Positions 1,883 to 40,507 of a stretch of 64,000 nucleotides of DNA are shown piece by piece. The stretch is from positions 162,997-226,996 of the forward strand of contig NVXV01000004.1 of the NCBI GenBank assembly GCA_002734085.1, read 5' to 3'. Position numbers and translations under genes: made by a program. The stretch's first letter is position 1. Each line of letters begins with the position of its first letter. This DNA comes from Fluviicola sp. (GTDB taxonomy: Bacteria; Bacteroidota; Bacteroidia; Flavobacteriales_D; Crocinitomicaceae). The notes under the pieces were generated by a model that saw nothing but the letters and a program-made list of their open reading frames with translations, ran no database searches and was not told the origin of the DNA.

Positions 1883-2256
1883 AAAAAGGCAAATCAGTTT
1901 GTCGCTGTTCATCTTTTGATGAAGAGAGGAAAGTCTGGGCAGTATAGAGCGCCGTACTTCCTAACGGGAAGGGCCTGAATTATCAGGAACAGCTAGTGCA
2001 ACAGAAAATAGGTAGCCCTGATTGTAACATCAGGGTCATAGTGAAAAGGTGAGGTAAGAGCTCACCGTCCCGCGTCGTGAGGCAGGGAGCTAGGTAAACC
2101 TTACGGACTGAAAGACCATGTAAACCGGGGTTAAAGGGCTGCTCGCTCAACTCGGAGGGTAGGTCGATTGATTCCGATTGTGAAGTCGGAACTAGATAAA
2201 TGACAGACGTCCCAATTAATTTGGGAAACAGGACCCGGCTTATGATTTGCCTTTTT
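1883..2256 (+). ncRNA. rnpB: RNase P RNA (class A)
   Basis: The catalytic RNA of RNase P removes 5' leaders from pre-tRNAs. Conserved blocks are present in order: 'gaggaaagtctgggc' near 1924, 'gtgaaaaggtgaggtaagag' near 2041, 'ggtaaacc' near 2093, 'agataaatgac' near 2193 and 'acaggacccggcttat' near 2228. The ends pair as the P1 helix: 'aaaaaggcaaatca' at 1883-1896 with 'tgatttgccttttt' at 2243-2256. The terminal T-run probably also serves as terminator. The exact 5' end is probably a few bases inside the stated start, given the promoter position. ORFs called across this region are shadows. Confidence 0.95.
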
Positions 2257-2301
2257 TTCTATTTTAGAACTCTTAAAAGATAAAAAATTAAGGCATTTTA
2301 G

Positions 2302-2309
2302 TAACTTTG
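2302..2309 (+). promoter_or_regulatory. -7 box TAACTTTG, 5 bases before a start codon
   Basis: A perfect TAnnTTTG lies only five bases upstream of the ATG at 2315, so the transcript would begin at or within a few bases of the start codon (leaderless or nearly so). No clear TTG lies 19 bases upstream. Confidence 0.5.
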
Positions 2310-2314
2310 AAAGC

Positions 2315-2956
2315 ATGAATTTTATTGATGAAAAACTTGAGGAATACGTTGTAAAACATACCTCTAAAGAATCTGATGTTTTGTACGACTTGAATCGTCA
2401 AACGCATATTAACGTGCTCCAACCAAGAATGCTTTCCGGACATCTTCAAGGCAGAGTATTAAGTATGCTCAGTCATATGATTAAGCCAAACCGAATTTTA
2501 GAAATAGGAACATATACTGGCTATGCAGCTATTTGCTTAGCAGAAGGACTTACAGAAAAAGGTGAACTATTTACAATTGATGTGAACTATGAGTTGGAAG
2601 ATATGGCGAAAAACTACTTTAAAAAAGCAGGATTTCAAGACCAAATAAAAATGATTATTGGAGATGCGTTAGAAGAGATTCCAAAATTAGATAAGAACTT
2701 TGATATGGTTTTTATCGATGCAGACAAAACTAATTATCTTAATTACTACAATCTCCTTATAGATGAACTACCTCAGAATAGCTATATAATAGCTGATAAT
2801 GTACTATGGTCTGGAAAAGTTTTAAATGAAAAAGAAATGAATGACCCCGATACAAAAGCGTTAAGCATTTTCAACAAAACGATTCAAGATGACACTAGAG
2901 TGGAGAATGTTTTATTTCCAATACGAGATGGTTTGATGGTGATTCGAAAAAAATAG
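2315..2956 (+). CDS. SAM-dependent O-methyltransferase (Methyltransf_3 family)
   Basis: 213 residues, the normal length for the caffeoyl-CoA O-methyltransferase-like/YrrM family. The SAM-binding motif I is 'ILEIGTYTGYAAICLAEGL' near residues 66-84. The acidic residue after strand 2 is in 'GELFTIDVN'. The metal-binding and catalytic region is 'DMVFIDADKTNYLNYY' near residue 130, followed by 'IIADNVLWSGKV'. Members methylate catechol-type hydroxyls or related small molecules; the substrate here cannot be told. It is the first gene of a tight operon, with threonine aldolase 4 bases downstream. Confidence 0.9.
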   Translation: MNFIDEKLEEYVVKHTSKESDVLYDLNRQTHINVLQPRMLSGHLQGRVLSMLSHMIKPNRILEIGTYTGYAAICLAEGLTEKGELFTIDVNYELEDMAKNYFKKAGFQDQIKMIIGDALEEIPKLDKNFDMVFIDADKTNYLNYYNLLIDELPQNSYIIADNVLWSGKVLNEKEMNDPDTKALSIFNKTIQDDTRVENVLFPIRDGLMVIRKK

Positions 2957-2960
2957 TAAT

Positions 2961-3983
2961 ATGGAGATAGTTGATTTACGTTCAGACACAGTGACTAAAC
3001 CTTCAAAAGAAATGAAGGAGTTTATGATAAATGCGCCAGTTGGCGACGATGTTTTTGAAGAAGATCCAACAATCAATGAATTAGAAGCCTACGCTGCAAA
3101 GATTTTTGGTAAAGAAGCTGGACTTTATTGCTCATCGGGAACACAAACCAATCAAATTGCTATAAATGTTTATTGCAGACCAGGAGATGAGGTTATTTGT
3201 GATAAAGATGCACACATTTATATGTATGAAGGTGGAGGAATCGCAAAAAACAGTGGTGCATCTGTTCGATTACTTGAGGGAGACAGAGGACGAATTACTG
3301 CTCAGCAAGTTAAAAGTGCCATAATGGATCCCTCAAATGTTCATTATCCTCTAACTTCTTTAGTCGCTCTTGAAGATACTATGAATAGAGGTGGTGGCGC
3401 TATTTACTCAATTGATGAAATCAAACGTATTCAAACACTTTGTAAAAATGAACGACTTCCACTCCACCTAGATGGAGCGAGAGTATTTAATTCCTTAGTA
3501 GAAACCAAGGTTGACTATGTTGAGTACGGAAACCTATTTAACTCCATCTCTATTTGTCTTTCAAAAGGTCTTGGAGCTCCCGTAGGATCTGTTTTGATTG
3601 GTAGTAAAGAATTTATCAAAAAAGCTAGAAGAGTACGTAAAGTTTTTGGTGGAGGTATGAGACAGGCTGGAATTATTGCGGCTGGTGGACTTTTCGCGTT
3701 AAAAAACAACATTGACCGATTAAAGATAGATCATGAAAGAGCAATTGCAATTGAATCAGCTTTCAAAAACTGTTCTTGGGTAGAAAATGTCCTAGAAACA
3801 CAAACAAACATTATAGTTGCAAATTTGAATAATGGTAAATCTGTTGAAGAAGTACTTAGTCAACTTGAGAAAAATCAAATCCTCGCGATGCCATTTGGCG
3901 GTAATATGATTCGAATGGTGACGCATTTAGATAATACTCCCGAACAAATTCAGCATGTAATTAACACGATTCAATCTATCTAA
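2961..3983 (+). CDS. ltaE: Low-specificity L-threonine aldolase
   Basis: 340 residues. This PLP-dependent enzyme cleaves L-threonine and allo-threonine to glycine and acetaldehyde. The N-terminus 'DLRSDTVTKPSKEM' is the family signature, followed by 'CSSGTQTNQIA'. The PLP lysine lies in 'SICLSKGLGAPVGSVL' and the preceding 'LHLDGARVFNS' supplies the PLP-contacting Asp. Fold-type I aminotransferase family of normal length. It is translationally coupled to the next gene: its TAA overlaps that gene's ATG by one base. Confidence 0.93.
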   Translation: MEIVDLRSDTVTKPSKEMKEFMINAPVGDDVFEEDPTINELEAYAAKIFGKEAGLYCSSGTQTNQIAINVYCRPGDEVICDKDAHIYMYEGGGIAKNSGASVRLLEGDRGRITAQQVKSAIMDPSNVHYPLTSLVALEDTMNRGGGAIYSIDEIKRIQTLCKNERLPLHLDGARVFNSLVETKVDYVEYGNLFNSISICLSKGLGAPVGSVLIGSKEFIKKARRVRKVFGGGMRQAGIIAAGGLFALKNNIDRLKIDHERAIAIESAFKNCSWVENVLETQTNIIVANLNNGKSVEEVLSQLEKNQILAMPFGGNMIRMVTHLDNTPEQIQHVINTIQSI

Positions 3984-4624
3984 TGAAAGAACTCTATTCA
4001 AAAATAATATTATTCATTAGTATATTATCATTTGTTTTCTCGTGTACAAACGATTCCAACAAAAGTGAAACTGTTGATCTTGAAGAGTTTTTGCCACAGG
4101 CGAAGAAAGAATATAATTATAAAGAAGACACTGTAGTGCAAACCGAAGAACATATTCCCGATTCGATAGAACTTTTTATACAGTCAAGAATAAGTAATTC
4201 CGTTTTTGTTCAAAAAGAACAGTTAAGCAACAATAAGCATTTTCCAGATCGCTTAGATTTTCAGCAAAAATACTATCACGAGCTTACCGTAGATAGTGTT
4301 CTTTATGAATTAGCAATTTGGGAATTTGAAGATAGTCTTCACACCGTAAATGCATTTTATAACTGGATGGATTGTTTTGGAGAAAAATGTAAATCTCTCC
4401 GGATTGGAGAGTCAAAATGGATGTATAAAGGTGCATTCCAACTATTTGTAGGTGATACAAAACTCATTTACATTGCCACAAAGAACAACCTGAATCAATT
4501 ATTGTGGAGTGATTTATTTGAGCCTGAAATAAAGCAAAAATGGAATTATTCTCTTTACCAACCTTTGAATCGTAAAGTAAAATGGCTTGAACTAAAAGAA
4601 AAAGATTTAGTTACTGCTCAGTAA
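3983..4624 (+). CDS. Predicted lipoprotein of unknown function
   Basis: 213 residues. The N-terminus 'IILFISILSFVFSC' has a hydrophobic core and a lipobox with the lipidated Cys at about residue 21. The mature part is acidic and then mixed alpha/beta, with no motif I recognise. Its start overlaps the threonine aldolase stop (TAATG), so it is the third gene of the operon. Its 3' end overlaps the convergent feoA gene by 14 bases. Confidence 0.75.
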   Translation: MKELYSKIILFISILSFVFSCTNDSNKSETVDLEEFLPQAKKEYNYKEDTVVQTEEHIPDSIELFIQSRISNSVFVQKEQLSNNKHFPDRLDFQQKYYHELTVDSVLYELAIWEFEDSLHTVNAFYNWMDCFGEKCKSLRIGESKWMYKGAFQLFVGDTKLIYIATKNNLNQLLWSDLFEPEIKQKWNYSLYQPLNRKVKWLELKEKDLVTAQ

Positions 4625-4847
4625 CAAAAATATTCTTAGCATCTGTTAATCGTAAACTAATAGCGAAATCGTTCAATCGGATGGCAATTGGATCACCAAA
4701 TGGTGAAATTGAGCGAATTTCAAAATGAGTCCCTGGAACTAGACCCATTTCTATTAATCTTTGGGAAATAGCGCTCTGCTCTACTCTAGCGACAATTCCT
4801 TTATCCCCTTTTTTAAGATTAACCAGATTTTTTTCAATCAATTTCAT
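4611..4847 (-). CDS. feoA: FeoA-domain protein (orphan)
   Basis: 78 residues, a single FeoA SH3-like domain. The family pattern is clear: 'LKKGDKGIVARV', 'RLIEMGLVPGTHFEIRSISPFGDPIAIRL', then 'LRLTDAKNIFV'. FeoA normally supports the FeoB ferrous iron permease at the inner membrane. No feoB is adjacent: downstream is a convergent lipoprotein gene, and the gene overlaps that gene's 3' end by 14 bases. A perfect -7 box (4852-4859) sits four bases upstream of the ATG, so it is probably a monocistronic leaderless transcript. Confidence 0.88.
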   Translation of the reverse strand: MKLIEKNLVNLKKGDKGIVARVEQSAISQRLIEMGLVPGTHFEIRSISPFGDPIAIRLNDFAISLRLTDAKNIFVTEQ

Positions 4848-4851
4848 AATA

Positions 4852-4859
4852 CAAAATTA
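4852..4859 (-). promoter_or_regulatory. feoA promoter, -7 box TAATTTTG
   Basis: Reading the minus strand, TAATTTTG ends four bases before the feoA ATG. A TTG lies 20 bases further upstream (4880-4882). Confidence 0.55.
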
Positions 4860-4974
4860 ACTCTAAAGCAACTTAAGTACAATACCATAAATGTGGTATT
4901 TATAGCATATATCAAAGTCTAAAACCAACCATTTACCATTTAAAAACGTTTTAATAATAGAAAAGTGAAAAGCT

Positions 4975-5331
4975 ATGAAGTCAAAAAACATAAAATCATT
5001 AAACTCTGCAGTATATGTGATGCGTCACTTTGTTGAGTTAAGTGCAGAATTGTTACCGCACTACGAGCGCATCACAAGAAACGAACCACACAGTATTGAA
5101 AAAATCGAAGAAAAAGAAAAAATAGATGCTGTTTATGAAGCGTATAGTGTCAATCCAAAAACAAGTGAATTTTTGTTAGGTTCAAACATTATTGCCTTAA
5201 TTTCAAAAGTGTATGATACACTTAAAAATCGATCATCAGAAAATGAATTGAAGGCACGTCGATACCTCAATGAATTTCAAATTGAGTATAAGCGCTTACA
5301 ACAAAATTGGTATACAACGCTGATGAATTAA
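4975..5331 (+). CDS. Hypothetical protein, predicted helical
   Basis: 118 residues, charged and mostly predicted alpha-helical ('LNEFQIEYKRLQQNWYTTLMN' at the end), with no signal peptide or membrane segment. I do not recognise the family. The codon use and ORF length support it being real, and no larger ORF overlaps. It stands alone between feoA and the queE operon with about 100 bases on each side, and no clear -7 box was found upstream. Confidence 0.6.
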   Translation: MKSKNIKSLNSAVYVMRHFVELSAELLPHYERITRNEPHSIEKIEEKEKIDAVYEAYSVNPKTSEFLLGSNIIALISKVYDTLKNRSSENELKARRYLNEFQIEYKRLQQNWYTTLMN

Positions 5332-36885: not shown

Positions 36886-37548
36886 ATGAAAACAACGCAT
36901 CTAGTTATATTATTAGTCCTTGGAGCAATATTGAATACTTCATTCTATTTCGCTCAAACAAAACTTATTTTTCACAAAAGCCATAGTGGAAGTGTCAAGT
37001 CATTCAAGATGGCATATGAAAAGAGTCTATTTGATATTGGGGCATCTAATTTTGGAATGGCACCCACAACTATTGTTAAAAATGCTGAGCTAGATAGTTT
37101 AATATTCTTAGATGATTCTACCACAATCATGATTACCTCAGAATATTGTGTAGATAGATCTCGATTTAATAGAGCTCCAAAAAGACCTAATAATTCTCCA
37201 GACTATAGCAACCGAGATACTGACAACTCTACACTTTGGCGTCCGGGTAAGGTCGTCATTCAAAATCACCCTGACTTTAATCGCAAAAATCCAATAGACA
37301 GTATTAAAAAAACGCTAAAAGTGAAGTACAATTTTGTAAATAGACCTGAAAGTGTAGTTTTTATTGATTCGTCAATAGGTCAGAAAGAAGATTTAAGCGC
37401 AAACAACCAGCTAGAAAAAAGAAATCCAAATAAAAACAAAGAAAGAGAGAAACCAAAGGCTAAAAGTGAAATTTTTAAAGGAATCTGGGTAACTATAGCA
37501 ATAATTGTTATTTCTACTTTATCAACTGGTGTTTTTAATAGGTGGTAA
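36886..37548 (+). CDS. Hypothetical exported protein with C-terminal membrane segment
   Basis: 220 residues. The N-terminus 'THLVILLVLGAILNTSFYFAQ' is a signal peptide, and the last 20 residues ('IWVTIAIIVISTLSTGVF') form a membrane segment. Residues 160-195 are a highly charged Asn/Lys/Glu linker. No known domain was recognised. The DoxX-like gene begins 10 bases after its stop, so the two are probably co-transcribed. Confidence 0.65.
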   Translation: MKTTHLVILLVLGAILNTSFYFAQTKLIFHKSHSGSVKSFKMAYEKSLFDIGASNFGMAPTTIVKNAELDSLIFLDDSTTIMITSEYCVDRSRFNRAPKRPNNSPDYSNRDTDNSTLWRPGKVVIQNHPDFNRKNPIDSIKKTLKVKYNFVNRPESVVFIDSSIGQKEDLSANNQLEKRNPNKNKEREKPKAKSEIFKGIWVTIAIIVISTLSTGVFNRW

Positions 37549-37558
37549 AACAACTACA

Positions 37559-38755
37559 ATGCGTCAAATTAACTGCAGCTTATTTTTATATGCATTCATT
37601 ATTACAGCAATAATACTTGTTCCTTTTACTTTTTTCTTATCTCCATTTGATTCCAGTATTGGACAAGTATTGTTTAGTGATATTATAAATTGGATTTGGA
37701 ATAGTTACTCCAATCAAGAGATTGTTACTGCAATTACATCAGATTCAATCGGTATGTATGTACTATTTATTATCATCATTTTTATGTCACTGATTCTATC
37801 CTTCATCATATTGAAGCTTACAAGAGTACAATTTCAGACAAATTTCATAAAATTCGTAAAAGCTATTTCAACTATATACCTCTCACTTATTCTGTTCAAA
37901 TATGGTTGTGACAAAATTTTTCATGCTCAATTTTATACTCCAGAACCAAATATTCTCTATACAAATTTTGGGAAACTCGATCAAGATATTTTATACTGGT
38001 CTGTTATGGGCTTGTCTTGGAAGTATTCTTTGTTTCTTGGGGTTACTGAAGTGTTCATCGCTATTGGTCTACTCTTTCAAAAAACGAGAGTTTTATCGCT
38101 TTTCATTTCCCTGTTTACTTTTGTTCATATCGTTGTAATTAATTTCAGTTTTGATATTTCAGTAAAATTATTTTCTTCCTTTTTACTCATTATAAATGTT
38201 GCTTTGGTTTATCCATTTCTAAAAAGAACAATTTTATTTATGGCTGGAAAAGGAGTTAATCAACTTTCCGTTTATAAAATCATGCCTCAATTCTTCCACC
38301 CAAGAACGAAAGTCACTTTATCTATTTCTATACTATTTCTAATCGTTTCAGAAGGACTTGCCTCACATATCTCTACTTATAACTACACGCTCACCAATAA
38401 TGATCAATATAAGGTTCAAGGCGCATTCTCTATTAATGAGAAACATGAAATCTTAGAAAGAAATGAGCTAAAAAGAATCTATTTTCACAAAGATAATTAC
38501 ATTATTTTCCACTTTAAAGATGACTCTCAACTTGACTTTTATTATGAATGGGATAATGAAACAAATAGTCTTATCCTATTTGATTATGAAAAAAAAGCAT
38601 TTCGAATTGAATTAATAAAACATAACTCCAAAGAATTGGAGTTAAACTTAAAAGGACTTTTCGGTTTGAGAAAGTTATGGCTTACTCGAATAGACCATAA
38701 AATGCTCCCTGCACTTCAAGAGCAGTTTCATTGGAGCATTGAAGACATTCAATAG
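37559..38755 (+). CDS. DoxX-like multi-pass membrane protein
   Basis: 398 residues from the ATG at 37559 (the track start is a TTG inside the upstream gene). Around nine hydrophobic segments. The stretch 'KYGCDKIFHAQFYTPEPNILYTNFG', 'DILYWSVMGLSWKYSLFLGVTEVFIAIGLL' resembles the DoxX-like family common in Bacteroidota. The last 100 residues are a soluble beta-rich tail. The function is unknown. Confidence 0.7.
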   Translation: MRQINCSLFLYAFIITAIILVPFTFFLSPFDSSIGQVLFSDIINWIWNSYSNQEIVTAITSDSIGMYVLFIIIIFMSLILSFIILKLTRVQFQTNFIKFVKAISTIYLSLILFKYGCDKIFHAQFYTPEPNILYTNFGKLDQDILYWSVMGLSWKYSLFLGVTEVFIAIGLLFQKTRVLSLFISLFTFVHIVVINFSFDISVKLFSSFLLIINVALVYPFLKRTILFMAGKGVNQLSVYKIMPQFFHPRTKVTLSISILFLIVSEGLASHISTYNYTLTNNDQYKVQGAFSINEKHEILERNELKRIYFHKDNYIIFHFKDDSQLDFYYEWDNETNSLILFDYEKKAFRIELIKHNSKELELNLKGLFGLRKLWLTRIDHKMLPALQEQFHWSIEDIQ

Positions 38756-38765
38756 CCATAAGCCT

Positions 38766-39224
38766 TTATCCAATCAACGTATCAAAGCTTGGTACGTCTT
38801 CAAAATAATCCAACGATTGTTCCTGATGATTAATTTTTGCCACTATTGTATTCAGTCCGTTGGTTAATATCAACCAATCTACTTGCAACTTAAAATTGTA
38901 TTGAGCAATTTGATAGAATGTATTTTCGGAGAGTTTTACTTCTGGTGCTTTACACTCAATAATAGCAATTGGTTTTGATTCTTTATTAAAAATGACACCA
39001 TCACAACGTCGTTTGAGTTTATTTACTTCAATATTATATTCAGAAGCAATCAACCCCAGAGGAGTCTGTTTTTCATTAACTAAAAAGTGTAAAAAATGTT
39101 GTCTCACCCACTCTTCTGGAGTTAACTGAAGCTTTTTTTTACGAAAAATATCCCAAACAAAGACTTTCTCATCAGACTTTGTGAGTTGTAATGAAACTTT
39201 AGGAAGATTTAAAGGAGTAAACAT
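38766..39224 (-). CDS. HsdR N-terminal-domain (PD-(D/E)XK-like) protein
   Basis: 152 residues, a stand-alone type I restriction HsdR N-terminal nuclease-like domain. 'EEWVRQHFLHFLV' is the helix of the family. The nuclease core is 'KRRCDGVIFNKESKPIAIIECKAPEVKLS' with Asp then Glu-Cys-Lys, a PD-(D/E)XK arrangement. There is no HsdM, HsdS or helicase domain nearby, so it is not a restriction system. Stand-alone copies are widespread in Bacteroidota and their role is unknown. It ends 10 bases from the convergent DoxX-like gene. Confidence 0.88.
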   Translation of the reverse strand: MFTPLNLPKVSLQLTKSDEKVFVWDIFRKKKLQLTPEEWVRQHFLHFLVNEKQTPLGLIASEYNIEVNKLKRRCDGVIFNKESKPIAIIECKAPEVKLSENTFYQIAQYNFKLQVDWLILTNGLNTIVAKINHQEQSLDYFEDVPSFDTLIG

Positions 39225-39228
39225 CGAA

Positions 39229-40299
39229 TTAATCTTTTAAATCGTATTCTGCCAGTATCACATTCCATTTGTAGCTCTCCGTTGCAGTTAATAACGCGGT
39301 ATTAATATTCTTTCTCAATGAATCTGAAACATTCCTACTCATTCCAATCGCATAGTATTGTGGGTTGAATTTTATATCTAACACCCTAAAATCATCAAGT
39401 TCTTTATTTTTACTAAATTCTCTTAAAAGAGGTAAGTCATAAACAGCAGCTTCAATTTCGCCATTTTTCAACGCTTCAATGAGCGACTCTTTGTTATCAT
39501 ACAGTTTTTTGTTTTCATAAAAATTATCTCTCAACCAATTATGTGTTCCTGAAAATTCAACTGTTCCAATAGACCTTTCTTTAAAATCTTCAATCTTATT
39601 ACTACTAGAACCTAATGTATCAACAGTTAAAGAAGAACTTATACTTGCTGTGAAACCTGAAATGATGATTATCGCGGTAAACATCCAAATAAGAGCAACG
39701 ATTCGACCACCAGTAGTTCTCGGGGATTTATCTCCATAGCCAACAGTTGTCATTGTTACAGCAGACCACCAGAATCCACTCCACAATCCTTTAATACCAT
39801 CTCCAAATTCTTCTTGATTCAGTTTTCTTTCAAAACGCCACTCTAAAAAACCAAAAATCAAAATCACCAAAGTCAATGCTCCTAAGGCACGAAAAAAATT
39901 CAAAGAAAAAAATGACTTTAAAAATAAGATTGAACTTTCAAAGCTAGATACATTCTTAGCCATCACACCCGAATGAGCTAAATAAAAAGGGACAGTGAAA
40001 TTCATCTTTTCGGAACGTTCACTAGTAATCGAAAGTGGATAAATCGCTAAATCAACTTTGTTTTCTCTCAATTCATCAAGTAATTGCTCCGATTTTAAAC
40101 TTTTCATTTCATGGTGAAATTCATTTTGATTAGTTATTTCACTCCATAGCCAAGCCATTGGTCCTTTAAGGTCTTCATCAACCTCATAAATAAATGGAGC
40201 TGCAGGACTGTAACCAATAATCAGTGAATCATTTGTTTTAGAATGAAGATTACAAAACAAGAAAAAAGAAATAAACAAAAGACATATTGAGAGTTTCAT
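39229..40299 (-). CDS. GluR0-like prokaryotic ionotropic glutamate receptor (K+-type pore)
   Basis: 356 residues. Signal peptide, then the first half of a periplasmic amino-acid-binding domain (about 25-120, with the ligand-binding Arg region 'SITSERSEKMNFTVPFY'), TM1 (about 136-152), a re-entrant pore loop with the K+ filter 'MTTVGYGDKSP' (183-193), TM2 (about 200-220, 'GFTASISSSLTV' parallel to SYTANLAAFLT of animal receptors), then the second half of the binding domain to the end. This split-SBP-around-pore layout is that of GluR0. The ligand and ion selectivity are inferred. Confidence 0.93.
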   Translation of the reverse strand: MKLSICLLFISFFLFCNLHSKTNDSLIIGYSPAAPFIYEVDEDLKGPMAWLWSEITNQNEFHHEMKSLKSEQLLDELRENKVDLAIYPLSITSERSEKMNFTVPFYLAHSGVMAKNVSSFESSILFLKSFFSLNFFRALGALTLVILIFGFLEWRFERKLNQEEFGDGIKGLWSGFWWSAVTMTTVGYGDKSPRTTGGRIVALIWMFTAIIIISGFTASISSSLTVDTLGSSSNKIEDFKERSIGTVEFSGTHNWLRDNFYENKKLYDNKESLIEALKNGEIEAAVYDLPLLREFSKNKELDDFRVLDIKFNPQYYAIGMSRNVSDSLRKNINTALLTATESYKWNVILAEYDLKD

Positions 40300-40507
40300 A
40301 TTTATTGATTTTCTACGAATTTAATAAATTTTAAAAAAGCTTCTGTATAAGGGTTTCAATAAATACTTCAAACAAATAAGAGGTTTTTTAGGTATTACTA
40401 AAAACGGAAAATTGCCGTTGCTACTATCACACTGCCTTTAGTCCTAGTAGAAGTGAAAAATTCAAAAAAGTTTCTTTTCTTTACAGTTCAAAACAAATAA
40501 AATAAAT

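Follow-up and report, generated by a model that had tools for sequence, protein, structure and literature searches.

We analyzed a 64,000-nucleotide stretch of Fluviicola sp. DNA (the window), in which positions 39229-40299 hold an uninterrupted reading frame for a 356-residue protein. A preliminary description of this DNA had given these coordinates exactly; we add the strand, which is minus. Pfam detects an SBP_bac_3 domain at residues 26-352 (E 1.3e-15), interrupted by a channel module that is recognized by both Ion_trans_2 (residues 144-224, E 9e-15) and Lig_chan (residues 141-243, E 8e-14); all three matches lie above the curated cut-offs. The gene and its upstream region contain the following features:

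39229..40299 (-), whole ORF, putative GluR0-type channel subunit of 356 aa (uninterrupted frame, Pfam, phmmer)
40243..40299 (-), hydrophobic helix at the N-terminus, residues 1-19, a probable signal peptide (sequence; helix 2-19 of the AlphaFold model)
39955..40224 (-), S1, part 1 of the ligand-binding domain, residues 26-115 (SBP_bac_3; model strands and helices)
40015..40017 (-), R95, predicted ligand alpha-carboxylate arginine, in a PLSITSER motif aligned with PISVTPER of GluR0
39829..39903 (-), TM1, residues 133-157 (model helix; Ion_trans_2/Lig_chan)
39751..39795 (-), pore helix, residues 169-183 (model helix)
39730..39747 (-), TVGYGD potassium selectivity filter, residues 185-190 (sequence, Pfam)
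39622..39714 (-), TM2, equivalent to M3 of iGluRs, residues 196-226, ending in SGFTASISSSLTV (model helix; alignment with GluA2 SYTANLAAFLTV)
39244..39594 (-), S2, part 2 of the ligand-binding domain, residues 236-352 (SBP_bac_3, model)
39436..39438 (-), D288, predicted acid for the ligand alpha-amino group, aligned with EAVMFDRP of GluR0
40300..40507 (no strand), divergent intergenic region shared with an M16-peptidase pair, likely promoter region (conserved head-to-head order)

Structure modelling, which the preliminary description had called for, supports an AMPA-receptor-type fold. AlphaFold2, given the window protein together with 26 relatives, produced a model (mean pLDDT 88, pTM 0.69) in which a helix at residues 2-19 is followed by a lobe at 26-115, TM1 at 133-157, a pore helix at 169-183, TM2 at 196-226, and a lobe extending to residue 351. 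The best PDB fold for this model is the LBD-TMD portion of AMPA receptors, and AMPA-receptor chains take all of the 50 top places in the list of fold matches, with E-values from 5e-21. TM-scores against AMPA subunits are only about 0.5, probably because the lobes are posed differently relative to the pore and M4 is missing. Pfam and the model together bear out the proposal of an amino-acid-binding domain split by two membrane helices around TVGYGD, with TTVGYGD at residues 184-190 and a filter sequence of TMTTVGYGDKSP. The end of TM2, SGFTASISSSLTV, gives a gapless alignment with GluA2 SSYTANLAAFLTV in a phmmer search of the PDB; the motif that had been described there as SYTANLAAFLT-like is related to that sequence, not identical to it. 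Basic residues (RFERK; K191, R194, and R199) are found on both sides of the pore at its presumed cytoplasmic face, in agreement with an N-out, inverted topology.

Sequence comparisons point to the same family. The best PDB matches of the single sequence in phmmer are AMPA (GluA2, E 2e-16), NMDA, and plant GLR receptors, while the family profile best matches the glutamine-binding ABC protein 6h30, then the Nostoc GluR0 homologue 2pyy, and then AMPA receptors. Aligned to the family profile with hhalign, GluR0 S1 and S2 give E-values of 2e-10 and 2e-6, respectively. Chance resemblance is excluded by the GluA2 match and by the full-length orthologues, 55-61% identical to the window protein, that five further genomes of the genus carry.

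We next compared the ligand and filter residues of 74 relatives, the window protein included. R95 is kept in 73/74, and position 288 is acidic in 73/74 (Asp in 72, Glu in one). GluR0 also has Asp at the amino-group position, whereas animal iGluRs have Glu. The preliminary description had expected an Arg/Glu ligand pair and had named its loss on alignment as evidence against a GluR0-like reading; the arginine stands and the acid is the aspartate of GluR0 rather than glutamate, and as R95 and an acid at 288 are both retained, that objection falls away. Ger et al (2010; PMC2950845) describe the ligand-contacting Arg and Asp as totally conserved in Groups 1 and 2 of the prokaryotic receptors, and in the GluR0 segments given in that paper these two residues line up with R95 and D288. 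The GYGD filter is kept in 71 of the 74 relatives, and conservation across the family is highest in the channel module. At the binding site, Ser250 is found in 69/74 and Phe36, which we take to be the likely counterpart of the GluA2 lid tyrosine, in all 74. The residue after Ser250 is, by our reading of the family alignment, at the position of GluA2 T655, a side-chain carboxylate contact; this assignment is uncertain by one residue, the phmmer alignment being shifted by one relative to the family alignment. The aligned position is Gly in the window protein and varies among S, A, T, G, D, P, and E across the 74 relatives, with Ser, Ala, Thr, Asp, and Pro accounting for most of the other proteins. 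Since the generic alpha-amino-acid contacts are conserved and the side-chain position is variable, the predicted ligand is an alpha-amino acid, not glutamate specifically.

Several relatives depart from this pattern. One fast-evolving protein (L010:1498-2571, minus strand) has a K+ filter with Phe in place of the ligand Arg, Glu in place of Asp, and Tyr in place of Ser250, and judging by these substitutions its ligand has probably been lost or changed. Two proteins from the window's taxonomic family (L013:1450-2508, minus strand, and L014:1489-2556, plus strand) form one clade and retain the domain layout of the receptor along with the Arg/Asp pair, with VGGADNK or VGGTDNK replacing TVGYGDK; their pores are probably not K+-selective. 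Distant paralogues with a K+-type filter (L105, L011, L012, L102, and L015) make up a second clade, found in the window's genus and beyond, and one genome of the genus (G005) carries both an orthologue and the distant paralogue.

Among ten genomes of the genus, six carry an orthologue, two have a distant paralogue alone, and two have no relative. The genus forms a single clade nested among Bacteroidota sequences in our tree, so inheritance within the genus looks vertical, with losses. In a sample of 396 genomes from the phylum, 38 have a match at 1e-20, of which 32 (~8%) are full-length relatives; we left the other six out of the relative count as they are pore-only K+ channels without a solute-binding domain; their sequences read as a two-TM K+ pore and, after it, a cytoplasmic domain of NAD-binding (TrkA-N-like) type. 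The named relatives belong to Cytophagales, Flavobacteriaceae, Saprospiraceae, Bacteroidales, Balneolaceae, and Ignavibacteriales, and to individual metagenome bins that carry the labels Nitrospiraceae, Gemmatimonadetes, and Delongbacteria. The earlier characterization of such prokaryotic receptors as rare is overstated, given 32 of 396 genomes here and a catalogue of prokaryotic relatives dating from 2010 (PMC2950845); in this phylum GluR0-type channels are moderately uncommon rather than rare. We found no paper on Bacteroidota GluR0-type members within the literature searched.

In each of the six genus genomes that carry it, the channel gene faces the same pair of M16 peptidases head-to-head, across a gap of 208 bases in the window (40300..40507), where a scan found no excess of promoter-like sites. 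Besides the M16 pair, no nearby window gene shares its arrangement among the six carriers, and we found no partner around channel relatives that is conserved across families. The neighbours in the window are an HSDR_N gene, the M16 peptidases, and a pyridine-nucleotide-disulphide oxidoreductase, and no transporter genes, neither permease nor ATPase, adjoin the channel. The HSDR_N gene (38766-39224, minus strand) encodes a standalone HSDR_N_2 protein of 152 aa and is present in all ten genus genomes, in varied places. We rejected an operon linking it to the channel, as the other genus genomes have it on a different contig or have no orthologous channel; its position just downstream is a local accident. 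Two window ORFs, 37505-38755 and 36886-37548 (both plus strand), have no Pfam match. Outside the genus, a ~960-aa Reg_prop propeller protein is encoded directly upstream of the channel in L045, L051, L052, L055, L056, and L057 (~2100-4990), an arrangement limited to one branch made up mostly of Flavobacteriaceae with a Saprospirales bin. This two-component-regulator propeller repeat protein is a possible functional partner of the channel. We found no plasmid DNA matching the channel region. Elsewhere in the genome, which holds two other K+-channel modules, the only other family-3 binding domains above cut-off belong to an SLT-domain lytic transglycosylase and to a histidine kinase, so that we found no family-3 amino-acid ABC binding protein. 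In the latter (L092:1380-2967, on G000:C28 of the same genome), the domain is fused to a HisKA_2/HWE histidine kinase, a possible second periplasmic small-molecule sensor.

Support for the preliminary identification of a GluR0-like amino-acid-gated K+ channel comes from the architecture, the filter, the Arg/acid pair, the fold predicted by the model, and conservation across the family. We assign the window protein as a GluR0-type (Group 1 of Ger et al) ligand-gated K+ channel subunit, with a probability of roughly 0.9 on sequence and model evidence. By analogy with GluR0, the subunit would sit in the inner membrane with its N-terminus outside, probably as a tetramer; the periplasmic two-lobed domain would close on an alpha-amino acid and pull TM2, opening an inverted, KcsA-like pore to K+. 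From this analogy we infer the oligomeric state, topology, gating direction, and K+ flux of the window protein. GluR0 itself has an inverted topology with both ends outside, restores growth and K+ uptake in K+-uptake-deficient E. coli LB2003, and slows shrinkage after KCl upshock (PMC13099474). The role of the window protein is likely a fast, ligand-dependent shift of K+ conductance and membrane potential, which could serve a volume or osmotic response or the sensing of amino acids released by neighbours.

Within this assignment, the channel type may be the same and the ligand something other than L-glutamate, such as Ser, Gln, Gly, a branched or D-amino acid, a peptidoglycan-derived compound, or a broad mix. 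We give this reading, which refines the GluR0-type explanation rather than opposing it, slightly better than even odds. It fits the conservation of F36, R95, S250, and D288 around a side-chain-reading position that is Gly here and mixed in the 74 relatives, and the scatter of NCBIfam matches, none of them near its cut-off, among binders of Lys/Arg/Orn, Gln, Arg, and cystine. Going by the title of a 2001 report by Mayer et al, crystal structures of GluR0 are also said to include serine as well as glutamate complexes. However, no positive evidence favours any single ligand.

Loss of ligand binding altogether, leaving a K+ channel whose periplasmic domain serves assembly or tension sensing alone, is improbable: the core contacts are all kept in the window protein and in nearly all relatives, even though L010, which lacks the Arg, Asp, and Ser together, demonstrates that such contacts can be lost, and a response of GluR0 to membrane tension has been proposed (JBC 2026). 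Still less probable is a decayed or non-expressed gene. Two of the ten genus genomes lack any relative and two have a distant paralogue alone, but the frame is intact, the functional residues are invariant, and the head-to-head position with the M16 peptidases is kept in 6/6 carriers. We give almost no weight to an ABC importer substrate-binding component misread as a channel: an SBP_bac_3 domain is present, and prokaryotic iGluRs are often annotated as ABC binding proteins (PMC2950845, Table 1), but here the domain contains a TM/pore insertion at residues 133-226 with a K+ filter, this module is what the family conserves best, and the permease and ATPase genes expected of an importer are absent next to it.

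A GluR0-type assignment extends the K+-selective prokaryotic glutamate-receptor type, so far characterized in a cyanobacterium, to conserved members in Bacteroidota and in phyla close to it. Small, intact subunits of ~356 aa that combine an LBD and a pore are candidates for structural work, and siblings with and without the K+ filter offer tests of how a K+ pore could have become the non-selective pore of neuronal receptors. More tentatively, Bacteroidota and allied phyla might hold a separate, fairly widespread K+-selective clade in which glutamate gave way to other amino acids or to wall fragments as the ligand, and in which some sub-branches swapped the filter (GGADN/GGTDN) or lost the ligand pair. 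If true, this clade would present the evolution of the iGluR pore and ligand as a natural series.

The window protein has the features of Group 1 prokaryotic iGluRs: S1 and S2 flank two TMs and a pore loop, the filter is of the K+ type, and the conserved Arg and Asp lie in S1 and S2, respectively; only 12 sequences were listed in this group (Ger et al, 2010; PMC2950845). It shares with GluR0 (Slr1257 of Synechocystis sp. PCC 6803) a hydrophobic N-terminal helix followed by S1-TM1-P-TM2-S2, the K+ filter, the Arg and Asp ligand pair, and the absence of an N-terminal domain and M4, but comes from another phylum and is only ~25-27% identical in the S1 and S2 segments compared. The sequences listed for Group 1 in 2010 reportedly come from cyanobacteria, one gammaproteobacterium, and green sulfur bacteria; those of the green sulfur bacteria are presumably nearest to the window protein's clade. 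The GluR0 homologue 2pyy, which ranks second among the PDB matches of the family profile (E 4e-38), has the same Arg and Asp, and its solved structure covers the binding core only. Animal AMPA and NMDA receptors and plant GLRs share the LBD-TMD fold and the SYTANLAAFLT-like end of M3; in contrast to them, the window protein has no N-terminal domain and no M4, carries a K+ filter, and has Asp for Glu. We rejected membership in the eukaryotic iGluRs, as the protein ends after S2 at residue 356 and has Asp288 where GluA2 has Glu (E705). The window protein adds to a protein type already known from cyanobacteria and is not a new kind.
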